Below, piece after piece: positions 52,612-62,164 of a DNA stretch of 64,000 nt. Both the position numbers and the translations under genes were made by a program. The notes under the pieces are model-generated. The model was not told the origin of the DNA, searched no databases, and saw nothing but the letters and a program-made list of their open reading frames with translations. Source of the stretch: Pseudoxanthobacter soli DSM 19599 (lineage in GTDB: Bacteria > Pseudomonadota > Alphaproteobacteria > Rhizobiales > Segnochrobactraceae); assembly GCF_900148505.1 (NCBI RefSeq), contig NZ_FRXO01000007.1, positions 124,001-188,000 on the forward strand. Direction: 5' to 3'. Each line of letters starts with the position of its first letter. Position 1 is the stretch's first letter.

Positions 52612-53010
52612 ATGAAACGATCCCTTGCCCTCGTTCTGGGTCTCGTTCCTGCCGTCGTTCTCGCCCCCCTCACCGCGGCGCTGGCGGCCACGGCCGGCGA
52701 ACCGGACCCGGCCGGAATCTGGAAGCGCGGAGACGGAAATGCCGAGGTGCGCATCGCCGCGTGCGGAGACAAGATCTGCGCCGTCAATCTCTGGATCGGC
52801 GATACCTCCGGCGGCGAGGAGGTGGGCGACCGGCTGGTGCTCACGCTCACGCCGAAAGACGAGGACACCCTGGCCGGCACCGCCTACGATCCGAAGCGCG
52901 ACCGCACCTACGCCATGACCATGCGTGTCGAGGAGGACCGTCTCGTCACCCGAGGCTGCATCCTCGCGGGGCTGCTCTGCAAGTCGGTGACGTGGTCGCG
53001 CGCGGACTAG
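52612..53010 (+). CDS. Secreted DUF2147 protein
   Basis: 132-aa protein with signal peptide MKRSLALVLGLVPAVVLAPLTAALA. The mature part PAGIWKRGDGNAEVRIAACGDKICAVNLWI matches DUF2147, a periplasmic family with a lipocalin-like fold. Two cysteine pairs (ACGDKIC; GCILAGLLC) may form disulfides. ATG 52612 follows GGAAGG. Its TAG stop is the first part of the adjacent repeat copy. Confidence 0.82.
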   Translation: MKRSLALVLGLVPAVVLAPLTAALAATAGEPDPAGIWKRGDGNAEVRIAACGDKICAVNLWIGDTSGGEEVGDRLVLTLTPKDEDTLAGTAYDPKRDRTYAMTMRVEEDRLVTRGCILAGLLCKSVTWSRAD

Positions 53011-53124
53011 AGCATATCCCGTTCAGATTGAACCGATCTGAACGATAAGGATATGCTCAAGCTTTTCAACTTGGAGCGATTTCTTGTCGATCTGATGATT
53101 CAATCAGATCGGAAAGCGCTCTAG
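53007..53124 (-). repeat. Intergenic double-hairpin repeat, copy 5 (inverted)
   Basis: 118-bp copy in inverse orientation, bounded by CTAG at both ends (53007-53010 and 53121-53124). Both hairpins are conserved. It fills the whole gap between two convergent genes: its left CTAG provides the TAG stop of the DUF2147 gene and its right CTAG the TAG stop of the EAL gene. Confidence 0.9.
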
Positions 53125-54461
53125 GCCTGAGCTGGCTGCGCCGACACCAGAGCGCTGCGGCGATAGTTTTCGAAGGCGCGGATTTCCAGCGGCGGGCTGA
53201 AGAAATAACCTTGAAACAGGTGGCACCCCGCCTCGCGAAGGAGATCCATCTGCTTCCTCGTTTCGACGCCTTCCGCGACGACCTTGAAGCCGAGCTTCCG
53301 TGCCATATCCATGATCGCTTCGATCACGACGATATTCGTCCGGTTCGAAGACATGTCGTGCACAAACGACTTGTCGATCTTGACCTGCCCGAGCGGAACA
53401 CGGTGCAGAACGTTCAGCGACGAATAACCGGTTCCGAAATCGTCCAGCGACCATACGATGCCGATCCTGGTGAGAGCGCTCATCTTCTCGGCCGTCGCGG
53501 CGATATTGTCGACGAACATGCTTTCCGTCAGTTCCAGCTTGATGTGACGCGGATCGGCGCCGCTCAGCGTCACGATTTCGGAAACGGTGTGCACGAAGTC
53601 CGGTTGCCGGAACTGGGATGCGCTGACATTGATCGAGAGGGTCAGGTGCGCGGTCTCCGGCTGGGCCTGCCAAAGGGCGAGTTGAGCGCACGCCGCCCGT
53701 AACACCCAGTTTCCGATTGGAACGATCAGTCCTGTTTCCTCCGCAAGCGGAATGAACTGGGCAGGCGGGATGTTTCCCATCCTGGCATGCTGCCAGCGAA
53801 TCAGGGCTTCGGCGCCGACAAGCGCCCCGAACTCATCCACCTGGGGCTGGTAGTGAAGCCGGAAGTCTCCGTTCGCGATGGCTTTCCGCAGTTCTACTTC
53901 CATCATGCGCCGAACGGTCAGATCGGCATTCATGATGATAACGGTCAGAGCCAGACTGGATATCGACGTCAGCGTGTTCGTCAGGACGGCTATTCGCGCC
54001 ATATGTGCTGGAATGACGAGAGCCGCATCCTGAACAACGAGATCCACATTCTCGAATAACGCGAATGCCATCAGGCAGAGGAGCGGTATGATGAATTTGA
54101 GATACAACCCGTTCTGGCGAAATACGAAATAACATCCAATGGCGATCGGCAGGAAATGCAGGTGCGTTGCCCGCGGCAGATCCGGCGGCACCTTATCGAA
54201 CAGACAGAACAGGACCGTCATAAGCGGTAGAAAATGCGCCTCGATAACGGCGCCCGTATACAGTCTCTTCTTCAGAATGACCCACAATATCCCGCCACCG
54301 GCGAGCATCATCAGAAAATGAAAGAGCGCCAGAAAGGAGCGGCCAGCGACAAGGAACGCAATGCACCAGCTTGCCCCAAGGGCAATCGTGATCAGGGACG
54401 CCGCAAATACGATGGCCTTTACACGTTGTGTATGGCTCTGGTCCCAATGCGTGCAAATCAT
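53121..54461 (-). CDS. Membrane-anchored EAL-domain cyclic-di-GMP phosphodiesterase
   Basis: 446-aa protein. The N-terminal about 180 residues contain five or six hydrophobic helices (VKAIVFAASLITIALGASWCIAFLV and following), probably a sensory membrane module. Residues about 190-435 are an EAL domain without GGDEF. Catalytic signature pieces are all present: EALIRW, LSINVSASQF, LELTESMFVDN, SLDDFGTGYSS, KIDKSFV, VVAEGVET and QGYFFSPP, so it should hydrolyse c-di-GMP. ATG 54461 (MICTHWDQ) is chosen; a GTG-type start 33 bp upstream is possible. DNA is less GC-rich than flanking genes. Confidence 0.9.
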   Translation of the reverse strand: MICTHWDQSHTQRVKAIVFAASLITIALGASWCIAFLVAGRSFLALFHFLMMLAGGGILWVILKKRLYTGAVIEAHFLPLMTVLFCLFDKVPPDLPRATHLHFLPIAIGCYFVFRQNGLYLKFIIPLLCLMAFALFENVDLVVQDAALVIPAHMARIAVLTNTLTSISSLALTVIIMNADLTVRRMMEVELRKAIANGDFRLHYQPQVDEFGALVGAEALIRWQHARMGNIPPAQFIPLAEETGLIVPIGNWVLRAACAQLALWQAQPETAHLTLSINVSASQFRQPDFVHTVSEIVTLSGADPRHIKLELTESMFVDNIAATAEKMSALTRIGIVWSLDDFGTGYSSLNVLHRVPLGQVKIDKSFVHDMSSNRTNIVVIEAIMDMARKLGFKVVAEGVETRKQMDLLREAGCHLFQGYFFSPPLEIRAFENYRRSALVSAQPAQA

Positions 54462-54626
54462 CTTGATTATAATCCCCCGGCGCGCGCTCGCCACGATGCC
54501 GCGATGTCGAGCGCACGAGAGGATTATATCCTGAGCCGCGTCGCCGAGACGAGGCGCGTCGCGAAATGCGAGGGATTGGCCATCCCCGTGGTTCGGACCG
54601 GAGACCCGAACGACGGGGAAAGCACC

Positions 54627-54744
54627 CTAGAGCGCTTTCCGATCTGATGGACTCATCAGATCGACAAGAAATCGCTCCAGATTCAAAAGCTTGAGCATAT
54701 TCTTGTCGTTCAGATCGGTTCGATCTGAACGGGATATGCTCTAG
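54627..54744 (+). repeat. Intergenic double-hairpin repeat, copy 6
   Basis: 118 bp with CTAG at both ends (54627-54630, 54741-54744). Hairpin 1 CGATCTGATG-GACT-CATCAGATCG (54640-54663), hairpin 2 CGTTCAGATCG / CGATCTGAACG. The right CTAG supplies the TAG stop of the cfa gene. Confidence 0.9.
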
Positions 54745-55973
54745 CCCCTGAACTTGTAGAGTCCGACATCGATGGCGCCGGCGCGGAAGCCGCCCTCGCA
54801 ATAGCCGAGATAATATTCCCACAGCCGGTGGAAGGCCGGGCCGAAGCCGAGGGGTTCGGTGCGGCTGCGCGCGGCCATATAGCGGCTGCGCCATTCGGCG
54901 AGCGTCTGGGCGTAGCCGTTGCCGAAGCAGAGGCTTTCGACCGGTTCGAGGCCGGCGGCACGCGCGTGGCCGGCGATGTGCGTCTTCGTCGGCAGCATGC
55001 CGCCTGGAAAGATGTGACGCTGGATGAAATCGGTGTTGCGCCGGTAGGTCTCGAACCGGTCCTCGGCGATGGTGATGACCTGAAGCACGGCGGTGCCGCC
55101 GGGGGCCAGGCATTCCCGAAGCTTCGCGAAATAGACCGGCCAATAGGCCTCGCCGACCGCTTCCATCATCTCGATGGAGACGATGCGGTCGTAGCGGCCG
55201 CCGACATCGCGATAGTCGACGAGATGGAAGTCCGTCCGTCCGGCAAGCGCCGGATCGGCGGCGTGGCTTTCCCGCGCGTAGGCGAGTTGTTCGCGCGACA
55301 GCGTGATGCCGGTGACGTTGGCGCCCCGCCGGGCCATCGTGGCGGCGAGAGCGCCCCAGCCGCAGCCGATCTCGAGCACCTTGTGGCCGGGCAGGATCTC
55401 CAGCATCTCGGCGATGCGGTCGAGACGCGCGGCCTGCGCCTCTTCCAGACTCTGCCCGGGGGCGATCTCGATCGCCGAGGAATAGTTCATCCCGTCATCG
55501 AGCCAGAGGCGGTAGAACGCGTTGCCGAGATCGTAGTGGAACGAGATGTTGCGCCGGCTGCCGGCCTTTGAATTGCGCCGCAGCAGATGGCGCACGCGGT
55601 TCACGAGGCGGGCAGGCCCCCACGCGGCGGCGCGCGCGGAGATGTCCGGCAGATTGTGCGCTGCGAGTTCGATCACCGCCGGCAGGTTCGGGCTCGACCA
55701 GTCGCCGTCCACATAGGCTTCGGAAAAGGCGACGTCGCCGCCGGTCGCGAGCCGGCGCAGGGCGCGCCAGCGGTGCAGCACCAGCGTCGCCTCCGGGCCG
55801 GGCCGCCCGCCCCGGCTGGACAGGCGGCGGCCGTCCGGCGTCACGATGGTGAGATGGCCGACCGCGATCTGGTCGAGAAGCCGGCGCAGGGCCGCCTCCG
55901 CCAGCCAGAGGCCGGGCGCGCGGGCGCTCATCGCGCGAGGGAGTTCGGAGAAACGATCGGCATCGTCGCGCAT
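54741..55973 (-). CDS. cfa: Cyclopropane-fatty-acyl-phospholipid synthase family methyltransferase
   Basis: 410-aa SAM-dependent methyltransferase that methylates double bonds of membrane phospholipid acyl chains. After an N-terminal domain (residues 1-120), the start of the catalytic part is NISFHYDLGNAFYRLWLDDGMNYSSA. The SAM motif is VLEIGCGWGALAATMARRG, followed by TGITLSREQLAYARE, SIEMMEAVGEAYW and FIQRHIFPGGMLPT. Last gene of an operon with an FAD oxidoreductase and DUF1365 under an RpoE-type promoter. In this setting it may supply the methyl group of furan fatty acids rather than only cyclopropane rings; that is inference. Confidence 0.93.
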   Translation of the reverse strand: MRDDADRFSELPRAMSARAPGLWLAEAALRRLLDQIAVGHLTIVTPDGRRLSSRGGRPGPEATLVLHRWRALRRLATGGDVAFSEAYVDGDWSSPNLPAVIELAAHNLPDISARAAAWGPARLVNRVRHLLRRNSKAGSRRNISFHYDLGNAFYRLWLDDGMNYSSAIEIAPGQSLEEAQAARLDRIAEMLEILPGHKVLEIGCGWGALAATMARRGANVTGITLSREQLAYARESHAADPALAGRTDFHLVDYRDVGGRYDRIVSIEMMEAVGEAYWPVYFAKLRECLAPGGTAVLQVITIAEDRFETYRRNTDFIQRHIFPGGMLPTKTHIAGHARAAGLEPVESLCFGNGYAQTLAEWRSRYMAARSRTEPLGFGPAFHRLWEYYLGYCEGGFRAGAIDVGLYKFRG

Positions 55974-55985
55974 GGGGATCGATCC

Positions 55986-56771
55986 TCAGGAACGGCGCAG
56001 GGGTTGAATGGAAATGGGCTTTCCCGGCAGCGGCGGTCGCGGCCGAAGGCGGATGCCCTTGGCCCAGATCCGCAGCGCCTCCCAATGGATCCCGCCGATG
56101 ACCTTGAGCGTCAGCAGCGGATGGGTCACGAGGGCGCGGGCGAGAGTCCCGTCGGTGAGGGGGCGACGCTGCGCGCTGTGAACGGCACTCAGCACCGGAC
56201 CGTCGCCGTCGGCGGCGACGATCGCGACCCGCAGGCCATCGGCCGGCGGGTCGATGCGGAAGGAATAGGTGAGGTCCATATCCATGAAGGGCGAAACGTA
56301 GAAGCGCTTTTCCGCCGTCTGGCGCAGCGGCGCGGCCGCGCCGTCGGCAACCGGGATGAGATAGGCGTGGCGCTGGCCGAAGGTGTTGTTGACTTCGTAG
56401 AGCACGGCCATCAGCGAGCCGTCGCGCCGGTGGCAGAAATAGAGGCTGAGCGGATTGAAGGCGTAGCCGAACAGGCGGGGCATGGTGAGGAGCCGCACCG
56501 GCCCGCCGTCGGACGCAAGCCCGGCCTGGGCGAGGACGCGCGCGACATAGGCCTTGAGCGAGCCGTCGCTGCCGTCGCCATAATCGCGCTCGAACACGCT
56601 GAAGACGTTGAACCTGTTGACCGAGAACAGCCGCAGACGCCGATCGAGCGCGTCCAGCGCGTCGAGATCGAGCAGGAGCGAGAACAGGCGATAGGACAGC
56701 TTATGCCGGCGCGGCTTGACGCGGACGTGCATCACCGAGCCGACATAGAGGGCGCCGTCGGCATCGCTCAT
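55986..56771 (-). CDS. DUF1365 protein
   Basis: 261-aa DUF1365 protein. Conserved parts: LYVGSVMHVRVKPRRHKLSYRLFSLLLDLD (start), FNVFSVFERDYGDGSDGSL, MPRLFGYAFNPLSLYFCH and VNNTFGQRHAYLIP, followed by KRFYVSPFMDMDLTYSF. Function not settled, but it regularly sits between an FAD amine-oxidase-like gene and a cfa gene. ATG 56771 overlaps the upstream stop by 4 bp; a longer frame into the upstream gene was rejected. Confidence 0.9.
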   Translation of the reverse strand: MSDADGALYVGSVMHVRVKPRRHKLSYRLFSLLLDLDALDALDRRLRLFSVNRFNVFSVFERDYGDGSDGSLKAYVARVLAQAGLASDGGPVRLLTMPRLFGYAFNPLSLYFCHRRDGSLMAVLYEVNNTFGQRHAYLIPVADGAAAPLRQTAEKRFYVSPFMDMDLTYSFRIDPPADGLRVAIVAADGDGPVLSAVHSAQRRPLTDGTLARALVTHPLLTLKVIGGIHWEALRIWAKGIRLRPRPPLPGKPISIQPLRRS

Positions 56772-58117
56772 GGCGCGACCTCCCCGGTCGCCGGCAGGGC
56801 ATGGAAAGCCGGAAGCGCGATACGCCCGGATTCGTTCGCCACCTTCCACGGTCGCCGCACGCCGCCGAGGGCCTCGGCGACCGCCAGGCCGGCCTGCAGG
56901 CCGTCCTCGTGGAAGCCCGCCCCGAAATAGGCGCCGCAATACCACACGCCGCCCTCGCCCTGCAGCGACCAGAGCCGCGCCTGCGCGGCCATGGCGCCGG
57001 CGTCGAACAGCGGGTGCTCGTAGGTCGTGCGGTAGGCGACCGTCTCCGGCGCCGGCTCGACAGAGGGGTTGAGCGTGACGAACAGCGGACGGTCCCCGGC
57101 GAGGCCCTGGAGGCGGTTCATCCAGTAGGTCACGCAGAGCCGTGGATCACCGCGCCGGTCGGCAAGATAGTTCCAGGCAGCCCATGCCCCCGCGCGGCGC
57201 GGCATCAGGCGTGCATCCGAATGCAGCACAGCTTCGTTCCGGCTGTAGCGGAAGGCGCCGAGGATATCCGTCTCCGCCTGCGTCGCCCTGCCGAGCATCG
57301 CCAGCGCCTGATCGGCGTGGGTGGCGATCACGACGTGGTCGAAGGTCTGTTCCACGCCATCCGACGTGAGCACGCCCACCCCGCCCGGAAAGCGCCGGAT
57401 GACGCGCACCCGGCGGCCGGTGAAGATGTGGCCCGGCAGATCCGCCCGCAGTTGCGCGACATAGGTCCGGCTGCCGCCGACGACCGTCCGCCATGCCGGC
57501 CGGGCGGTGATCTGCAGCAGGCCGTGGTTCTCGCAGAAGCGCACGAAGGCCGCCGCCGGATAGCAGCCCACGTCGGCGGCGGGCGTCGACCAGATCGCCG
57601 CTGCCATCGGGTAAAGATGATCGTCGCGGAACGCCGCACCGTAGCCGTGGGAGTCGAGATAGCTGTCGAGGCTTTGCAGTCCCATGCCCGGAAGGTCGCG
57701 TGGGGCGCGGCGATAGAACCGCAGCAGGTCCTTCAGCATCGACGCGAACCGCGGCGAGACCAGATTTCCCGGCTGGGCGAACAGGCCCCGAAGGCCGGAG
57801 CCGGAATATTCCGTCCGCCCCTCGTCCAGCGAAACGGAGAAGGACATGTCGGACATCCGCGTCGCCACGCCGAGATAGGCGAACAGCGCGGTGAGGTTGG
57901 GATAGGTCTTCTCGTTGTACACGATGAAGCCGGTATCCACGGGAAGGCCGCCGGCCTCGACCGTGTTGCTGTGGCCGCCGAGGCGGCCGTCAGCTTCGAA
58001 CAGCGTCACCTCGTGCCGCCGCGACAGCAGCCACGCCGCTGAGAGACCGGAGATGCCCGCGCCGATCACCGCGATCTTGCGGCCGGCCCCGGGGGTGAAG
58101 TCCGGACGGATGTTCAT
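56768..58117 (-). CDS. FAD-dependent oxidoreductase (amine oxidase-like, UfaD-type)
   Basis: 449-aa flavoprotein. Dinucleotide-binding motif IAVIGAGISGLSAAWLLSRRHEVTLFEAD at residues 15-43, then GRLGGHSNTVEAGGLPVDTGFIVYNEKTYPNL, typical of the NAD(P)-binding amine-oxidase-like group found beside DUF1365 and Cfa. The C-terminal GVWYCGAYFGAGFHEDGLQAGLAVAEAL binds FAD. In Rhodobacter sphaeroides a protein of this type takes part in furan fatty acid synthesis under RpoE. First gene of the minus-strand operon with promoter TGATCC-N16-CGTACA. Confidence 0.9.
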   Translation of the reverse strand: MNIRPDFTPGAGRKIAVIGAGISGLSAAWLLSRRHEVTLFEADGRLGGHSNTVEAGGLPVDTGFIVYNEKTYPNLTALFAYLGVATRMSDMSFSVSLDEGRTEYSGSGLRGLFAQPGNLVSPRFASMLKDLLRFYRRAPRDLPGMGLQSLDSYLDSHGYGAAFRDDHLYPMAAAIWSTPAADVGCYPAAAFVRFCENHGLLQITARPAWRTVVGGSRTYVAQLRADLPGHIFTGRRVRVIRRFPGGVGVLTSDGVEQTFDHVVIATHADQALAMLGRATQAETDILGAFRYSRNEAVLHSDARLMPRRAGAWAAWNYLADRRGDPRLCVTYWMNRLQGLAGDRPLFVTLNPSVEPAPETVAYRTTYEHPLFDAGAMAAQARLWSLQGEGGVWYCGAYFGAGFHEDGLQAGLAVAEALGGVRRPWKVANESGRIALPAFHALPATGEVAP

Positions 58118-58166: not shown

Positions 58167-58194
58167 TGTACGTGAAACCAACCGCACCGGATCA
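58167..58194 (-). promoter_or_regulatory. RpoE-type promoter of the FAD oxidoreductase-DUF1365-cfa operon
   Basis: On the minus strand TGATCC (complement of 58189-58194) is followed after exactly 16 nt by CGTACA (complement of 58167-58172). It matches the promoter facing the other way at 58207. Predicted start of transcription leaves a leader of about 40 nt before ATG 58117. Confidence 0.7.
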
Positions 58195-58206
58195 CCTCAA
58201 CAAGAA

Positions 58207-58234
58207 TGATCCAGCCGGTGATGCCGTGCGTAGA
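58207..58234 (+). promoter_or_regulatory. RpoE-type autoregulated promoter of the rpoE-chrR operon
   Basis: TGATCC (58207-58212), 16-nt spacer, CGTAGA (58229-58234). This has the -35 TGATCC known for group ChrR-linked sigma E promoters and the same spacing as the divergent promoter at 58167-58194. It implies that translation of rpoE begins downstream of about 58241. Confidence 0.72.
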
Positions 58235-58313
58235 AGGGGGCATGAATGCGTTGCTCGAACACCCCCGGCCGGGATCGTCCTTCGGCCGTCCCCCGGCCCG
58301 CCGGGAGGCGGTC

Positions 58314-58892
58314 GTGACGCATATGTCGGAGGATGGCGCGGTGCCGGAGGGCGATGAACTCGCCGGATTGATTGCCAAGGTCGCACACGAGCGCGACCGG
58401 CAGGCTTACGGGCGGCTTTACAGCTATTTCGCACCGCGCGTGAACGCTTTCCTGCGCAAGTCCGGCCTGCCCGCCGCCGCGGCGGAGGAGATCGCCCAGG
58501 AGACGATGCTGAGCGTGTGGCGCAAGGCCTCCTATTTCGATCCGTCCCGGGCGGGGGCTTCGACGTGGATCTTCACGATCGCCCGCAACCAGAGGATCGA
58601 TCATCTGCGCCGTGCGAAGGTCGTCAGCACCGCCGAAAGCGATATGCCGATCGAGGACGACGAGGCGCCCTCCGGCGAGGCCCTGCTGCTTGCAGCGGAG
58701 CGGGAGATCGGGGTGCGCACCGCGCTGAAGGCGCTCTCCGACGAGCAGGCCGCCGTGGTGCGGCTCTCCTTTTTCAGCGACAAGCCCCATTCGGAAATCG
58801 CACGCGAGCTCGGCCTGCCGCTCGGCACGGTCAAGTCGCGGGTGCGCCTCGCCCTCGGGCGGCTGCGTGCATTGCTGGAAGCCCAAACATGA
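58314..58892 (+). CDS. rpoE: ECF RNA polymerase sigma factor, RpoE (ChrR-linked) type
   Basis: About 192-aa ECF sigma factor. Region 2: LYSYFAPRVNAFLRKSGLPAAAAEEIAQETMLSVWRKA, FDPSRAGASTWIFTIARNQRIDHLRR; region 4: LKALSDEQAAVVRLSFFSDKPHSEIARELGLPLGTVKSRVRLALGRL. GTG 58314 has GGGAGG 5 nt upstream and lies downstream of the autoregulated promoter; in-frame ATGs at 58206 and 58242 would be at or before the transcription start, and ATG 58323 is a second option. It overlaps chrR by 4 bp. The homolog responds to singlet oxygen by release from ChrR. Confidence 0.9.
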   Translation: MTHMSEDGAVPEGDELAGLIAKVAHERDRQAYGRLYSYFAPRVNAFLRKSGLPAAAAEEIAQETMLSVWRKASYFDPSRAGASTWIFTIARNQRIDHLRRAKVVSTAESDMPIEDDEAPSGEALLLAAEREIGVRTALKALSDEQAAVVRLSFFSDKPHSEIARELGLPLGTVKSRVRLALGRLRALLEAQT

Positions 58893-59584
58893 CCGCCCGT
58901 CATCACGCGACCGATGAAACCCTGATGCGCTATGCCGCCGGGCGCCTGCCTGCGGCGCCGGCACGTGTCGTCGCCGTTCATCTTGCCGGCTGCCAGACAT
59001 GCCGTGCCCGCCTTTCCACGTTCGAGGCCGTCGGCGGCGCGTTGCTGGACGAGATCGAGCCGGCTCCGATGCCTGCCGACGCTTATGCCCGGGCGCTGAG
59101 CGCCATCGAAGCCGAGAGCCGGCCGACCCCGTCCTCGCAACCTTCGTCGGGCCGGCACGGTCGCGCGCCGGAGGCGCCCGGGCGGCGGGCCATGGCCGAT
59201 CGGCCCGGAGGGTTCGCCGTTCCGGAGCCGTTGCGGGATTGTGAGATCGGCCCTTGGCGGTGGATCGGCATCGGCGTGCGCGCGAGCGCCATCCGCCTGC
59301 CGGAAGATCCGCAGGCGCGCCTGACGCTCCTGCGGGTCGGCCCCGGGCGCAAGTTGCCCGAACACGGACATTTCGGCACCGAGTTCACACAGGTGCTCGT
59401 CGGATCGTTCTCCGACGGCTTCGGGCGCTACATGCCCGGCGACCTCAGCGAGATGGATCACGACATCGAGCATCAGCCGGTCGTCGACCCGGAGATGGAG
59501 TGCATCTGCCTTGCCGCGCTCGAGGGCGGGATGCGGCTCACGGGGTTCTTCGGGCGGCTTGTTCAGCCCTTCATCCGCCTCTGA
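58889..59584 (+). CDS. chrR: Anti-sigma factor ChrR
   Basis: 231-aa zinc-dependent anti-sigma factor. The N-terminal anti-sigma domain has the zinc motif HLAGCQTC (H-x3-C-x2-C) at about residues 31-38 plus an upstream His (ARHHATDETLMRYAAGRLP). The C-terminal cupin domain has PEHGHFGTEFTQVLVGSFSD and DHDIEHQPV, metal-binding features needed for singlet-oxygen response. Overlaps rpoE by 4 bp, which gives coupled synthesis. Holds RpoE inactive until oxidative stress. Confidence 0.93.
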   Translation: MTARHHATDETLMRYAAGRLPAAPARVVAVHLAGCQTCRARLSTFEAVGGALLDEIEPAPMPADAYARALSAIEAESRPTPSSQPSSGRHGRAPEAPGRRAMADRPGGFAVPEPLRDCEIGPWRWIGIGVRASAIRLPEDPQARLTLLRVGPGRKLPEHGHFGTEFTQVLVGSFSDGFGRYMPGDLSEMDHDIEHQPVVDPEMECICLAALEGGMRLTGFFGRLVQPFIRL

Positions 59585-59593
59585 CGGTGCGGC

Positions 59594-60508
59594 ATGGGGG
59601 AGGCAGCGTCGCTCGCGCTCACCCTGCTTGGCGCCGGCACGGTTTCGGCAGGCCTGGTTTCTGCAGGTTTGGCTTCCGCCGTTCTTTCTCCCCTCGCGAC
59701 GCTCAACGCGCTTTCGCGGCTGGAGCGCGTGAAAGTCGAGACGAACCTCGCCTATGGCGACGGCGCGCGTCACGGCATGGATGTGTTCACGCCCCGCGAC
59801 GGGAAGGACCGCCGGCCGGTCGTGGTGTTCTTCTATGGCGGCGGCTGGGAGGAAGGCGAGCGGGCGAGCTACCGCTTCGTCGGTGCCGCTCTGGCGAGCC
59901 GCGGCATCGTGACGTTCATTCCCGATTATCGCGTCTATCCGCAGGTCCGCTTTCCAGGCTTCCTTGAGGATGGTGCAGGCGCCGTGCGGTGGGCTCGCAC
60001 CAACGCCGGGCGGTTTGGCGGTTCCCCCGCCCGCCTCGTCCTCGCCGGCCATTCGGCGGGCGCACACATCGCAGCGATGCTCGCCTTCGATCCGCAGTGG
60101 CTGGCGCGCGAGGGGCTGGACGCCCGCCGCGACATCGCGGGTTTCGCCGGCCTTGCCGGACCTTACGACTTCCTGCCGCTGCGCAGCGCGACGCTGATGG
60201 ACATCTTCGGTCCTGAAGCGCAGCGCGCCGGCACCCAGCCGATCAACGTGGTTTCCGGCGACCGTTGTCCCGCCTTCCTGGCGACGGGCGCGCGCGACAC
60301 GACCGTGGAACCCGGAAACACCGACCGTCTCGCCCGCCGGATCCGCGCCTCGGGCGGTGATGCCACGACGCGACGCTACGCCCGCGCCGACCACCGCACG
60401 CTGCTTGGCGCCCTCGCCCGGCCGCTGCGCTTCATCGCGCCGGTGCTGGACGACGTGACCGGCTTCGTCGAGCGGGTGACCACGCGGGAGAACCGTCAAT
60501 GGCCCTGA
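59594..60508 (+). CDS. Alpha/beta hydrolase (esterase/lipase family)
   Basis: 304-aa carboxylesterase-type hydrolase. Oxyanion motif FFYGGGWEEG (the HGGG-like box), nucleophile in LAGHSAGAHIAAM, and a C-terminal catalytic His in RADHRTLLGAL with Asp in TGARDTTVEPG. The N-terminal segment of about 35 residues is hydrophobic (LALTLLGAGTVSAGLVSAGLASAVL), suggesting a membrane anchor or signal. Third gene of the rpoE operon; it overlaps the DUF1295 gene by 10 bp. May release or exchange oxidised acyl chains. Confidence 0.87.
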   Translation: MGEAASLALTLLGAGTVSAGLVSAGLASAVLSPLATLNALSRLERVKVETNLAYGDGARHGMDVFTPRDGKDRRPVVVFFYGGGWEEGERASYRFVGAALASRGIVTFIPDYRVYPQVRFPGFLEDGAGAVRWARTNAGRFGGSPARLVLAGHSAGAHIAAMLAFDPQWLAREGLDARRDIAGFAGLAGPYDFLPLRSATLMDIFGPEAQRAGTQPINVVSGDRCPAFLATGARDTTVEPGNTDRLARRIRASGGDATTRRYARADHRTLLGALARPLRFIAPVLDDVTGFVERVTTRENRQWP

Positions 60509-61311
60509 TCACCGCCGTCATCGTTCTGGCTGTTGCGCTGTCGCTTGTCATGGCCGGCGCATGGCTCATGGCCGAGCGCACGGGCAATCACGGATGGGTC
60601 GATACGGTCTGGTCGTTCGCCACCGGCGCGGCCGGCATCGCGGCCTGCGTGCTGCCGGCCGGAGACGGCTGGATGCCGCGTCAGATCGTGGTGGCCGTTC
60701 TCGTCGGCGGCTGGTCGCTGCGGCTCGGCACGCACATTCTGCAGCGGACGATGGCGGGGCATGACGATCCCCGTTATGCCGCTCTTCGCGAGCAGTGGGG
60801 CCGCGCGGCCTCAGGGCGCCTGTTCCTGTTCCTGCAGGTGCAGGCGCTCGCCGCGCTGGTGCTCGTGCTCGCGGTGGCAGCCGCCGCCCATAACCCCCTG
60901 CCCTTCTGGCGATGGGGCGATGCGTTGGGCATCGTGCTGGCGCTGACGGCGTTCGCCGGCGAAGCGGTTGCCGACCGCCAGCTCGCCCGCTTCAGAACCG
61001 AGCCGGCTCACCGCGGTGAGGTCTGCGATGCCGGTCTCTGGGGGCTGACCCGCCATCCCAACTATTTCTTCGAGTGGCTCGGATGGCTCGCCTATCCCGC
61101 CATCGCCATCGCGTGGTCCGGTGCGCATCCGTTCGGCTTCTGGGCGCTTGCCGCGCCGCTTCTGATGTATGTGCTGCTGGTACACGGCTCGGGCATTCCG
61201 CCGACAGAGGCACACATGCTGCAATCAAGGGGCGATAAATATCGCGCATACCAGCAAAGGGTGAATGCGTTCTGGCCCGGTCCTGCCCTTGGGCGAAAGG
61301 AAACATCATGA
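60499..61311 (+). CDS. DUF1295 (steroid 5-alpha-reductase-like) membrane protein
   Basis: 270-aa integral membrane protein with six or seven helices. The conserved motifs are NHGWVDTVWSFATG near the start and, at the C-terminus, GLWGLTRHPNYFFEWLGWLAYP and GDKYRAYQQRVNAFWPGP, characteristic of DUF1295. Family proteins reduce or methylate lipids with NADPH or SAM. Follows the hydrolase (10-bp overlap) and overlaps the truncated cfa gene by 4 bp. This gene order is common in RpoE-linked lipid operons. Confidence 0.9.
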   Translation: MALITAVIVLAVALSLVMAGAWLMAERTGNHGWVDTVWSFATGAAGIAACVLPAGDGWMPRQIVVAVLVGGWSLRLGTHILQRTMAGHDDPRYAALREQWGRAASGRLFLFLQVQALAALVLVLAVAAAAHNPLPFWRWGDALGIVLALTAFAGEAVADRQLARFRTEPAHRGEVCDAGLWGLTRHPNYFFEWLGWLAYPAIAIAWSGAHPFGFWALAAPLLMYVLLVHGSGIPPTEAHMLQSRGDKYRAYQQRVNAFWPGPALGRKETS

Positions 61312-61415
61312 GCTTCATCGCCGCCGCCAGCCGGCTCGCCGAGCGTCTGCCCGCGCCCGATTCGCTCACCCGCCTCGGGATCGACCTCCTAGGCTGCGGA
61401 CTCATAACGCATTGA
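61308..61415 (+). pseudogene. Second cfa-type methyltransferase gene, truncated by an IS element
   Basis: ATG 61308 overlaps the DUF1295 stop (ATGA). The first 28 codons, MSFIAAASRLAERLPAPDSL and TRLGIDLL, match the N-terminus of Cfa-like methyltransferases often found after DUF1295. At about 61390 the sequence passes into the IS end and the frame stops at 61415. The remaining about 370 codons are not found on the other side of the IS, so the gene was lost by insertion plus deletion or rearrangement. Confidence 0.75.
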
Positions 61416-62164
61416 TCCAGATGCGGACGGCAACGAGCTTGAGGGCTGCAAGGAAGTTTTCTGATCGGCGGTCATAGCGCGTGGCGAGGCCCCGCATCTG
61501 CTTGATGCGGTTTGAAGAAGCGCTCGATTTGGTTCCTTTGGCGATAGAGCCGTGGGCCGAAGGCGAAGGTTCGCTTTCGGATGGCACGCGGCGGCACATT
61601 GGCGAAAACGCCGCGCTCCGCTGCTTCAGTGCGGATGGCGTCGGTATCATAGGCTTTGTCGGCGAGCAGGATGCCGCCTTGTTGGAGATGGGCCAGCAAC
61701 TCCCGCCCCGCCGGCGCATCGCCGGCCTGTCCGGCGGTGAGCAGGAGATGGATCGGCCGGCCTTCTGCGTCGACCAGAGCGTGGATCTTGGTGTTCAGCC
61801 CACCCCGGGAGCGTCCCATGCGACGATCGTCGTCGCCCCCTTTTTGATGGCAACGCAGGAGCTGCCGATCATCACGATGTCGCCGTCATAGGCGGCGGAA
61901 ACCGCGTCCAGCAGCCGATCCCAGACCCCGGCCGCCCGCCAGCGCACGAAGCGGTTGTAGAGGGTTGTGCGCGGCCCGTAGCGCTCCGGCACATCCCGCC
62001 ACGGCGCCCCGGTTCGGAACCGCCACAGGATGCCGTTGATCACCTGTCGGTCATCCATCCGCGCGACCCCGCGCCGATTGTTCGGCAGCAGCGGCGCGAT
62101 GATCGCCCATTCCTCGTCATTCAGTTCATGACGGCGCATCTCTCAGGCTCCCAGTTGGGCAGCC
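61392..62164 (-). mobile_element. IS5-family insertion sequence (IS427-like), degenerate
   Basis: About 773 bp. Suggested ends are GGCTGCGGACTC at 61392 and its imperfect inverse ending GGGCAGCC at 62164, sharing GGCTGC and scattered bases; ends are approximate. Left flank is CTCCTA inside the cfa-like gene, the right flank AGAATCACGG is unrelated, and no clear target duplication is seen. Encodes a two-frame transposase on the minus strand. Confidence 0.65.
61402..62139 (-). pseudogene. IS5-family transposase, two-frame and frameshifted
   Basis: OrfA (62139 to 61795) begins MRRHELNDEEWAIIAPLLPN and includes GVARMDDRQVINGILWRFRTGAPWRD. OrfB (read from about 61845 to 61472) contains GRSRGGLNTKIHALVDAEGRPI and DKAYDTDAIR (catalytic Asp) and YRQRNQIERFF (catalytic Glu). 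A -1 shift between them at AAAAAGGGGG (near 61845) is the normal programmed event of this group. A second change near 61511-61513 (one extra T on the plus strand) throws the C-terminus into another frame; the true ending, IKQMRGLATRYDRRSENFLAA, is found in the third frame down to 61402. The transposase is therefore probably inactive. Confidence 0.8.

Follow-up and report, generated by a model that had tools for sequence, protein, structure and literature searches.

The RpoE-ChrR system is the best-studied singlet-oxygen response in bacteria. In Rhodobacter sphaeroides, the cited passages describe RpoE-dependent promoters before rpoE-chrR and before the adjacent RSP_1091-1087 operon, and a feedback of RSP_1091 and RSP_1090 on ChrR turnover (PMC3818230). 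RSP1091 is UfaD and RSP1090, a DUF1365 protein, is UfaO in a published pathway to furan fatty acids; in Rhodopseudomonas palustris ufaM lies beside ufaD and ufaO, and synthesis of 9M5-furan fatty acid by these three genes (RPA2571-2570-2569) has been demonstrated with R. sphaeroides as host (PMC7380195). The core regulon comprises about eight genes conserved across Proteobacteria, according to a source that also lists the zinc ligands of ChrR and describes its anti-sigma and cupin-like domains (PMC6852236). For the Pseudomonas syringae homologue the ECF11 promoter consensus is given as TGATCCn16CGTA (PMC5507510), with which the Rhodobacter and Shewanella sites agree (PMC5036791, PMC4336711).

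Here we describe the corresponding locus of Pseudoxanthobacter soli DSM 19599, contained in a 64-kb stretch of its genome (the window; coordinates are positions within it). The paired promoters and their link to furan fatty acids belong to a known system, both having been published for Rhodobacter; what is new is the start of rpoE. Comparison with relatives suggests that the rpoE mRNA is leaderless or nearly leaderless, starting at or near the ATG at 58242, a reading to which we assign a probability of roughly 0.78.

Gene content and the divergent promoters

On the plus strand, rpoE (58242-58892 in its long form) encodes a protein with ECF sigma domains whose best PDB match is R. sphaeroides RpoE. 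It overlaps chrR (58889-59584), which encodes a zinc anti-sigma factor, by 4 nt (ATGA, 58889-58892). This ChrR is by its domains a full family member (TIGR02451, 207.3 bits against a cut-off of 124.5), and reading by eye finds the zinc ligands H6, H31, C35 and C38, the motif HGHFGTE and a later histidine, where 6 is presumably the residue number of the first ligand. Genes with the domains of an alpha/beta hydrolase (BD-FAE; 59594-60508) and a DUF1295 membrane protein (60499-61311) follow and are probable members of the rpoE operon, as judged from gene spacing only.

The minus strand carries, by domains and relatives, ufaD (56768-58117; FAD oxidoreductase of the RSP1091 type, amine-oxidase-like) and ufaO (55986-56774; DUF1365, RSP1090 type), followed by a fatty-acyl methyltransferase gene of the CMAS family (54741-55973). 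Gaps and overlaps mark these sets as candidate operons of four genes on the plus strand and three on the minus strand. The earlier note had spoken of eight genes; we count seven contiguous candidates and found no eighth. It had also named the third minus-strand gene cfa, but its product scores far below the NCBI cut-offs for cyclopropane synthases (246.9 against 600; 218.7 against 400) and the gene has the position of ufaM in R. palustris, so that the evidence favours the label ufaM-like. FAD desaturase, DUF1365 and SAM methyltransferase genes thus stand together in the window, and their grouping recurs in relatives.

As in R. sphaeroides, the two operons adjoin, an RpoE promoter precedes each, and ufaD and ufaO stand first in theirs; positive feedback through furan fatty acids would be shared as well (PMC3818230, PMC7380195, PMC6852236). 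In contrast to that species, the window has the methyltransferase gene inside the ufa operon, in the same order as the three R. palustris genes (PMC7380195). Its sigma gene also has an ATG at +9, where the sampled locus closest to R. sphaeroides RpoE lacks an in-frame one. The proposed tie to the ChrR-controlled singlet-oxygen system and to furan fatty acids is supported by the promoter consensus, the ChrR family match and the Rhodobacter literature; promoter recognition, the ChrR feedback loop and furan-fatty-acid synthesis are here presumed by analogy with the published relatives.

Directly downstream of the DUF1295 gene, two overlapping frames (DUF4096 and DDE_Tnp_1; 61402-62139) make up a transposase of the IS4/5 family. 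Just downstream of the ufa operon, an EAL-domain gene (53121-54494, minus strand) is flanked by a 122-nt inverted repeat, 93% complementary (53004-53125 and 54626-54747). Its arm belongs to a repeat of about 118 bp that is dispersed through the genome; scoring 40 of 249 first-look candidates gave at least 72 matches, of which over 40 are close to full length and some stand in tandem.

The rpoE-chrR promoter is TGATCC-N16-CGTAGA on the plus strand (58207-58234; TGATCC at 58207-58212, CGTAGA at 58229-58234) and the ufa promoter TGATCC-N16-CGTACA on the minus strand (58167-58194; TGATCC at 58194-58189, CGTACA at 58172-58167). They stand back-to-back between ufaD and rpoE-chrR, their -35 hexamers 12 bp apart, and both match the ECF11 consensus as published (PMC5507510). 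The coordinates proposed earlier for the pair are confirmed, with an exact TGATCC-N16-CGTA on each strand; the claim that hexamers and spacing are identical holds for the -35 hexamers and the N16 spacers, and the -10 hexamers differ by one base. As the ATG of ufaD lies about 51 nt after CGTA, that operon has an ordinary leader.

TGATCC-N16-CGTANA has only two exact matches in the window, namely this pair. With two mismatches allowed, the 15 matches found resemble the number in shuffled sequence (9.4 ± 2.9), so the weaker matches mean nothing. The exact TGATCC-N16-CGTA is not enriched in the genome as a whole (5.16 Mb): a looser pattern matches 39 times, 7 of these matches are exact, and a simple calculation predicts about 10. 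Since the decamer is close to chance level, the case rests on position and recurrence: two of the seven sites adjoin each other, one facing rpoE and the other ufaD, an arrangement seen again in relatives.

Using an alignment of 14 UfaD sequences, we scanned a collection of genomes and kept the best 80 loci. A sigma gene is divergent from and adjoins ufaD in 52 of these, followed by a ChrR match in 51. Both promoters are present at a score of at least 9/10 with spacing 16 in 42 of the 52, and at 10/10 in 25; at spacings of 10-15 and 17-22 no pair occurs except one at 20, and 100 mononucleotide shuffles gave none. Among the ten loci without both is that of Ancylobacter vacuolatus, which of the named relatives is the closest; its ufaD promoter site is exact but has a spacer of N15, not N16. 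Most of the other nine, largely Rhizobium-Agrobacterium types, have a weaker -35 on the ufaD side (such as CAATCC or AAATCC). On this comparative evidence we are almost certain that the two divergent RpoE promoters are real.

Their close mirror arrangement is another matter. Leaving aside two loci that have no ufaD site of spacing 16, the -35 hexamers of relatives stand anywhere between 3 and 264 bp apart. Conservation thus does not extend to the mirror, and we rejected the fixed, designed unit that the earlier note had seen in it; the N15 spacer of A. vacuolatus also departs from it. For the same reason we think it very unlikely that both promoters form one composite element at which polymerases compete, making rpoE and ufa transcription mutually exclusive: the 12 bp between the hexamers in the window, and gaps down to 1-5 bp in some relatives, would suit such competition, but gaps of up to 264 bp mean that no common geometry is kept.

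A start codon at a fixed distance from the rpoE promoter

The earlier note placed the start of the sigma factor downstream of the first ATGs, and rightly so: ATG 58206 overlaps the -35 hexamer and ATG 58221 falls within the spacer. What it missed is what we take to be the main feature of the locus, the next ATG (58242-58244, plus strand), 9 nt after CGTA. This ATG lies at the predicted transcription start and would be the leaderless start codon of a long RpoE.

We express its position as an offset, the number of nucleotides from CGTA to ATG. A first survey covered every in-frame start codon downstream of the promoter, both in the window and in 52 relatives. When ATGs were counted blind to frame in these 53 loci, offsets 8 and 9 held 7 and 32 of them, respectively, and all 39 are in frame; smaller peaks at 12 and 13 are due to ATGATG and ATGAATG. 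The in-frame ATG is also present in nine of ten loci with a divergent rpoE (window included) from a set of 30 loci. A 299-genome draw on the phylum yielded 90 rpoE loci, 54 with a promoter of at least 9/10, 31 with the ATG and 28 with it in frame. Among the best 30 loci of a 295-genome draw on one family (f60), one per genus, the promoter is found in all 30, the ATG at +8 in 29 and in frame in 28.

For a pooled count we started from 229 sequences and dropped 39 without an adequate rpoE match and 40 without a promoter of at least 9/10 within 500 bp. This kept 150 loci, none duplicated, which were grouped by record title or kinship; the pool leaves out 10 plasmid loci, later-added relatives and separately read regions such as the other sites of the P. 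soli genome. In Alphaproteobacteria an ATG stands at offset 8 or 9 in 103 of 123 loci and is in frame in 100 of the 103, figures that come from loci related by descent and so are not independent trials. The in-frame ATG occurs in four of six betaproteobacterial loci. Among 21 gammaproteobacterial and other loci, three have an ATG at 8 or 9, one of them in frame, and of the 16 loci that have any in-frame ATG within 40 nt, 13 have the first of them at offset 32-38. The promoter taken for each locus was the best-scoring one (the nearest to the gene among ties), a choice in which the ATG had no part but which may carry some bias. At the level of sequence, the comparison establishes the fixed promoter-ATG distance, the maintenance of frame and the difference between Alpha- and Gammaproteobacteria.

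The same distance emerges when genes are ignored. When every site followed by an ATG within 25 nt was counted in 76 alphaproteobacterial genomes, whichever gene it preceded (146 matches), 12 ATGs lay at offset 8 and 23 at offset 9, against a mean of 4.6 and a maximum of 11 elsewhere. Of 394 f60 genomes, 145 contain the composite TGATCC-N16-CGTA-N8-ATGNTG and none contains the reversed control. At ufaD promoters an ATG is found at offset 8 in 3 of 42 and at offset 9 in 0 of 42. RefSeq places the start of rpoE at the +8/+9 ATG in seven of ten annotated plasmid loci and internally in three (10 of 72 matching records).

The exceptions count against the leaderless reading. In Alphaproteobacteria 20 of the 123 pooled loci have no ATG at 8 or 9, and in three more it is out of frame. 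Two loci (L040, L047) have GTG at this position instead of ATG, and in two others (L133, L220) the ATG is out of frame. The sampled locus closest to R. sphaeroides RpoE (L216, 78% identical) has its ATG at +10, out of frame, and thus, unlike the window, lacks an in-frame ATG at +8/+9.

Five exact TGATCC-N16-CGTA sites lie elsewhere in the P. soli genome. One (L201, 410-447; contig 4, 560209-560246) has an ATG at +9, that of a photolyase-related gene (DPRP, PF04244), which is probably a second leaderless target. Another (L203, 420-445; contig 8) precedes a gene for a DUF2177 membrane protein, with 36 nt up to its ATG, and this target probably has a leader; a third (L205, 487-512; contig 12) lies downstream of a response-regulator-like ORF and about 125 nt upstream of an ETR1_N ORF (ethylene-receptor-like N-terminal domain). 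The remaining two fall inside other frames and look like chance.

The predicted N-terminal extension and competing start sites

From 58242 an open frame runs into the sigma gene, adding 27 codons (58242-58322, plus strand) that have equivalents in relatives. Measured from the ATG to the conserved sigma start, these extensions take 27 different lengths, from 9 to 83 codons, and 66 of 69 are in frame and open. In 14 close pairs, changes at codon positions 1, 2 and 3 number 109, 107 and 135 over 314 codons of extension, and 360, 217 and 1022 over 2406 codons of sigma body. By this measure there is hardly any selection on the extension as protein, and its GC pattern is only weakly coding; both count against the leaderless reading. 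The many lengths, drifting residues and kept frame together suggest a free linker, maintained only for frame. AlphaFold, supplied with 22 of the 66 long forms as an alignment, predicts residues 1-30 with a pLDDT below 50 and a confident sigma fold after them. The leaderless mRNA would add, as modelled, a disordered N-terminus of about 27 residues ahead of an internal start.

Most extensions hold another in-frame start codon before the sigma core. In the window GGAGG (58304-58308) is followed by the candidates GTG 58314 and ATG 58323 (the element spans 58304-58325, plus strand), from which a short RpoE may be made; residue 1 of the crystallised R. sphaeroides RpoE aligns to 58323. We counted the dipeptide VT 27 times in stretches of 33 residues from the 66 extensions and four times in stretches of 100 residues from the body, and its valines are encoded by GTG in 23 of 30 cases, compared with 204 of 489 body valines. 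The recurrence of GTG-ACN in otherwise unconserved extensions (58314-58319 in the window) suggests a conserved internal GTG start. It is thus plausible that two forms exist, a long leaderless one and a short internal one. An mRNA fold that hides the internal ribosome site was not apparent: GGAGG lies in a stem, but the fold is no different from that of shuffles (z = -0.01).

How the rpoE mRNA begins may be judged from the bases around the ATG. A pyrimidine precedes the purine at the usual -1/+1 context of bacterial transcription starts. Of the 105 pooled loci with an in-frame ATG at offset 8 or 9, 102 have a pyrimidine just before it, and at ufaD promoters, where that ATG is lacking, the pyrimidine-purine step peaks at offset 8 too (0.42, n = 43). 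Taken together, these patterns would have RNA polymerase start at the A or a few nucleotides away. Mapping in Shewanella, as cited, gives the start only as 'A (+1)' (PMC4336711). A start 1-5 nt upstream of the ATG, which leaves no room for a full ribosome-binding site, would fit the mapped start of Bradyrhizobium japonicum ecfF (ECF16), reported as 6 bp after the -10 and overlapping the annotated ATG (PMC3420878). It would also fit the ATG lying at distance 8 or 9 depending on the locus, as +1 cannot then be at the same offset and on the A everywhere. However, the pyrimidine is found before the A at both distances and the ufaD step peaks at offset 8, and we see such a nearly leaderless start as possible rather than expected. 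Additionally, AAGG stands 4 nt before ATG 58242; given a transcription start further upstream, it could act as part of a ribosome site within a short leader, a point against the leaderless reading.

A more conservative view is that translation of rpoE begins solely at the internal GTG 58314 or ATG 58323, with its Shine-Dalgarno sequence, that the promoters are of the ordinary divergent RpoE type, and that the ATG at +8/+9 is no more than a preferred initiation sequence for RNA polymerase (pyrimidine-A-T-G). The GGAGG 5 nt before GTG 58314, the recurring GTG-ACN (Val-Thr) and the near absence of protein-level selection on the extension all agree with this, as does the preference of the ecfF authors for a distal start codon (PMC3420878, in the part cited), which counts against the leaderless reading. 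Yet an initiation motif needs no frame, whereas 100 of the 103 alphaproteobacterial ATGs keep theirs across 27 extension lengths, and ufaD promoters, served by the same sigma factor, have the ATG in only 3 of 42 cases at offset 8 and none at 9. We therefore consider internal initiation alone to be improbable, and prefer a leaderless or nearly leaderless rpoE mRNA starting at or near ATG 58242.

Proposed mechanism, precedents and implications

In the mechanism that we propose, destruction of ChrR would let RpoE holoenzyme use the two divergent promoters. One would express ufaD, ufaO and the ufaM-like gene through an ordinary leader, leading to furan fatty acids that help to destroy ChrR. The other would drive rpoE-chrR from a promoter fused to a start codon, with transcription most likely beginning at, or a few nucleotides from, the A of ATG 58242 to give a leaderless or nearly leaderless mRNA. 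Ribosomes would read a 27-residue, probably disordered extension, free in sequence and fixed in frame, and then the sigma factor, and the internal start (GTG 58314 or ATG 58323) would probably yield the shorter, crystallised form.

A functional switch between two isoforms, shared by Alphaproteobacteria in general, can be offered only tentatively: short RpoE might be made at a basal level from the internal start, and long RpoE, upon stress, only from the leaderless mRNA. It is equally speculative that the disordered tail alters stability or ChrR binding such that the loop switches itself off, by analogy with sigma-R', or that leaderless translation allows RpoE synthesis when stress impairs ordinary initiation.

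Leaderless ECF genes and long sigma isoforms are of a kind known in Actinobacteria. The sigE P2 promoter of Mycobacterium tuberculosis, like that predicted for rpoE, is described as sigma-dependent and autoregulated, giving a leaderless mRNA at the main start codon (PMC10027907); it differs in being actinobacterial, in its sigma group and anti-sigma factor, and in requiring MprAB. In Streptomyces coelicolor, sigR p2 gives sigma-R', a form 55 amino acids longer with a half-life of about 10 min (PMC4921905). The likeness is that a sigma-dependent promoter makes an N-terminally extended form beside a shorter one, which here is read from the genes, and the anti-sigma factors RsrA and ChrR are both named as founding ZAS proteins (PMC6852236). 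Unlike sigR, rpoE showed no second, basal sigma-70-like promoter between 58000 and 58400 in a search with the E. coli consensus. B. japonicum ecfF is likewise an autoregulated ECF gene with a mapped start overlapping the annotated ATG, although it belongs to group ECF16 and its authors concluded that the distal start is used (PMC3420878, as cited). Leaderless mRNAs have also been mapped in rhizobia: 171 in Sinorhizobium meliloti and, in B. japonicum, 192 whose 5' ends coincide exactly with the start codon (PMC3616915, PMC4842269). We found no report of a leaderless or long-isoform RpoE-ChrR in the open-access literature, most subscription papers being outside the reach of that search.

The value of these observations lies in the fusion of promoter and start codon as a conserved feature of the singlet-oxygen regulator in Alphaproteobacteria. 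The 40-bp promoter-start signature offers a means of correcting annotated starts across genomes, some of which would be wrong if most Alphaproteobacteria have a leaderless rpoE. If this reading is true, the crystallised form of RpoE may not be the induced one, and stress-induced synthesis of the sigma factor would bypass the normal recruitment of ribosomes.
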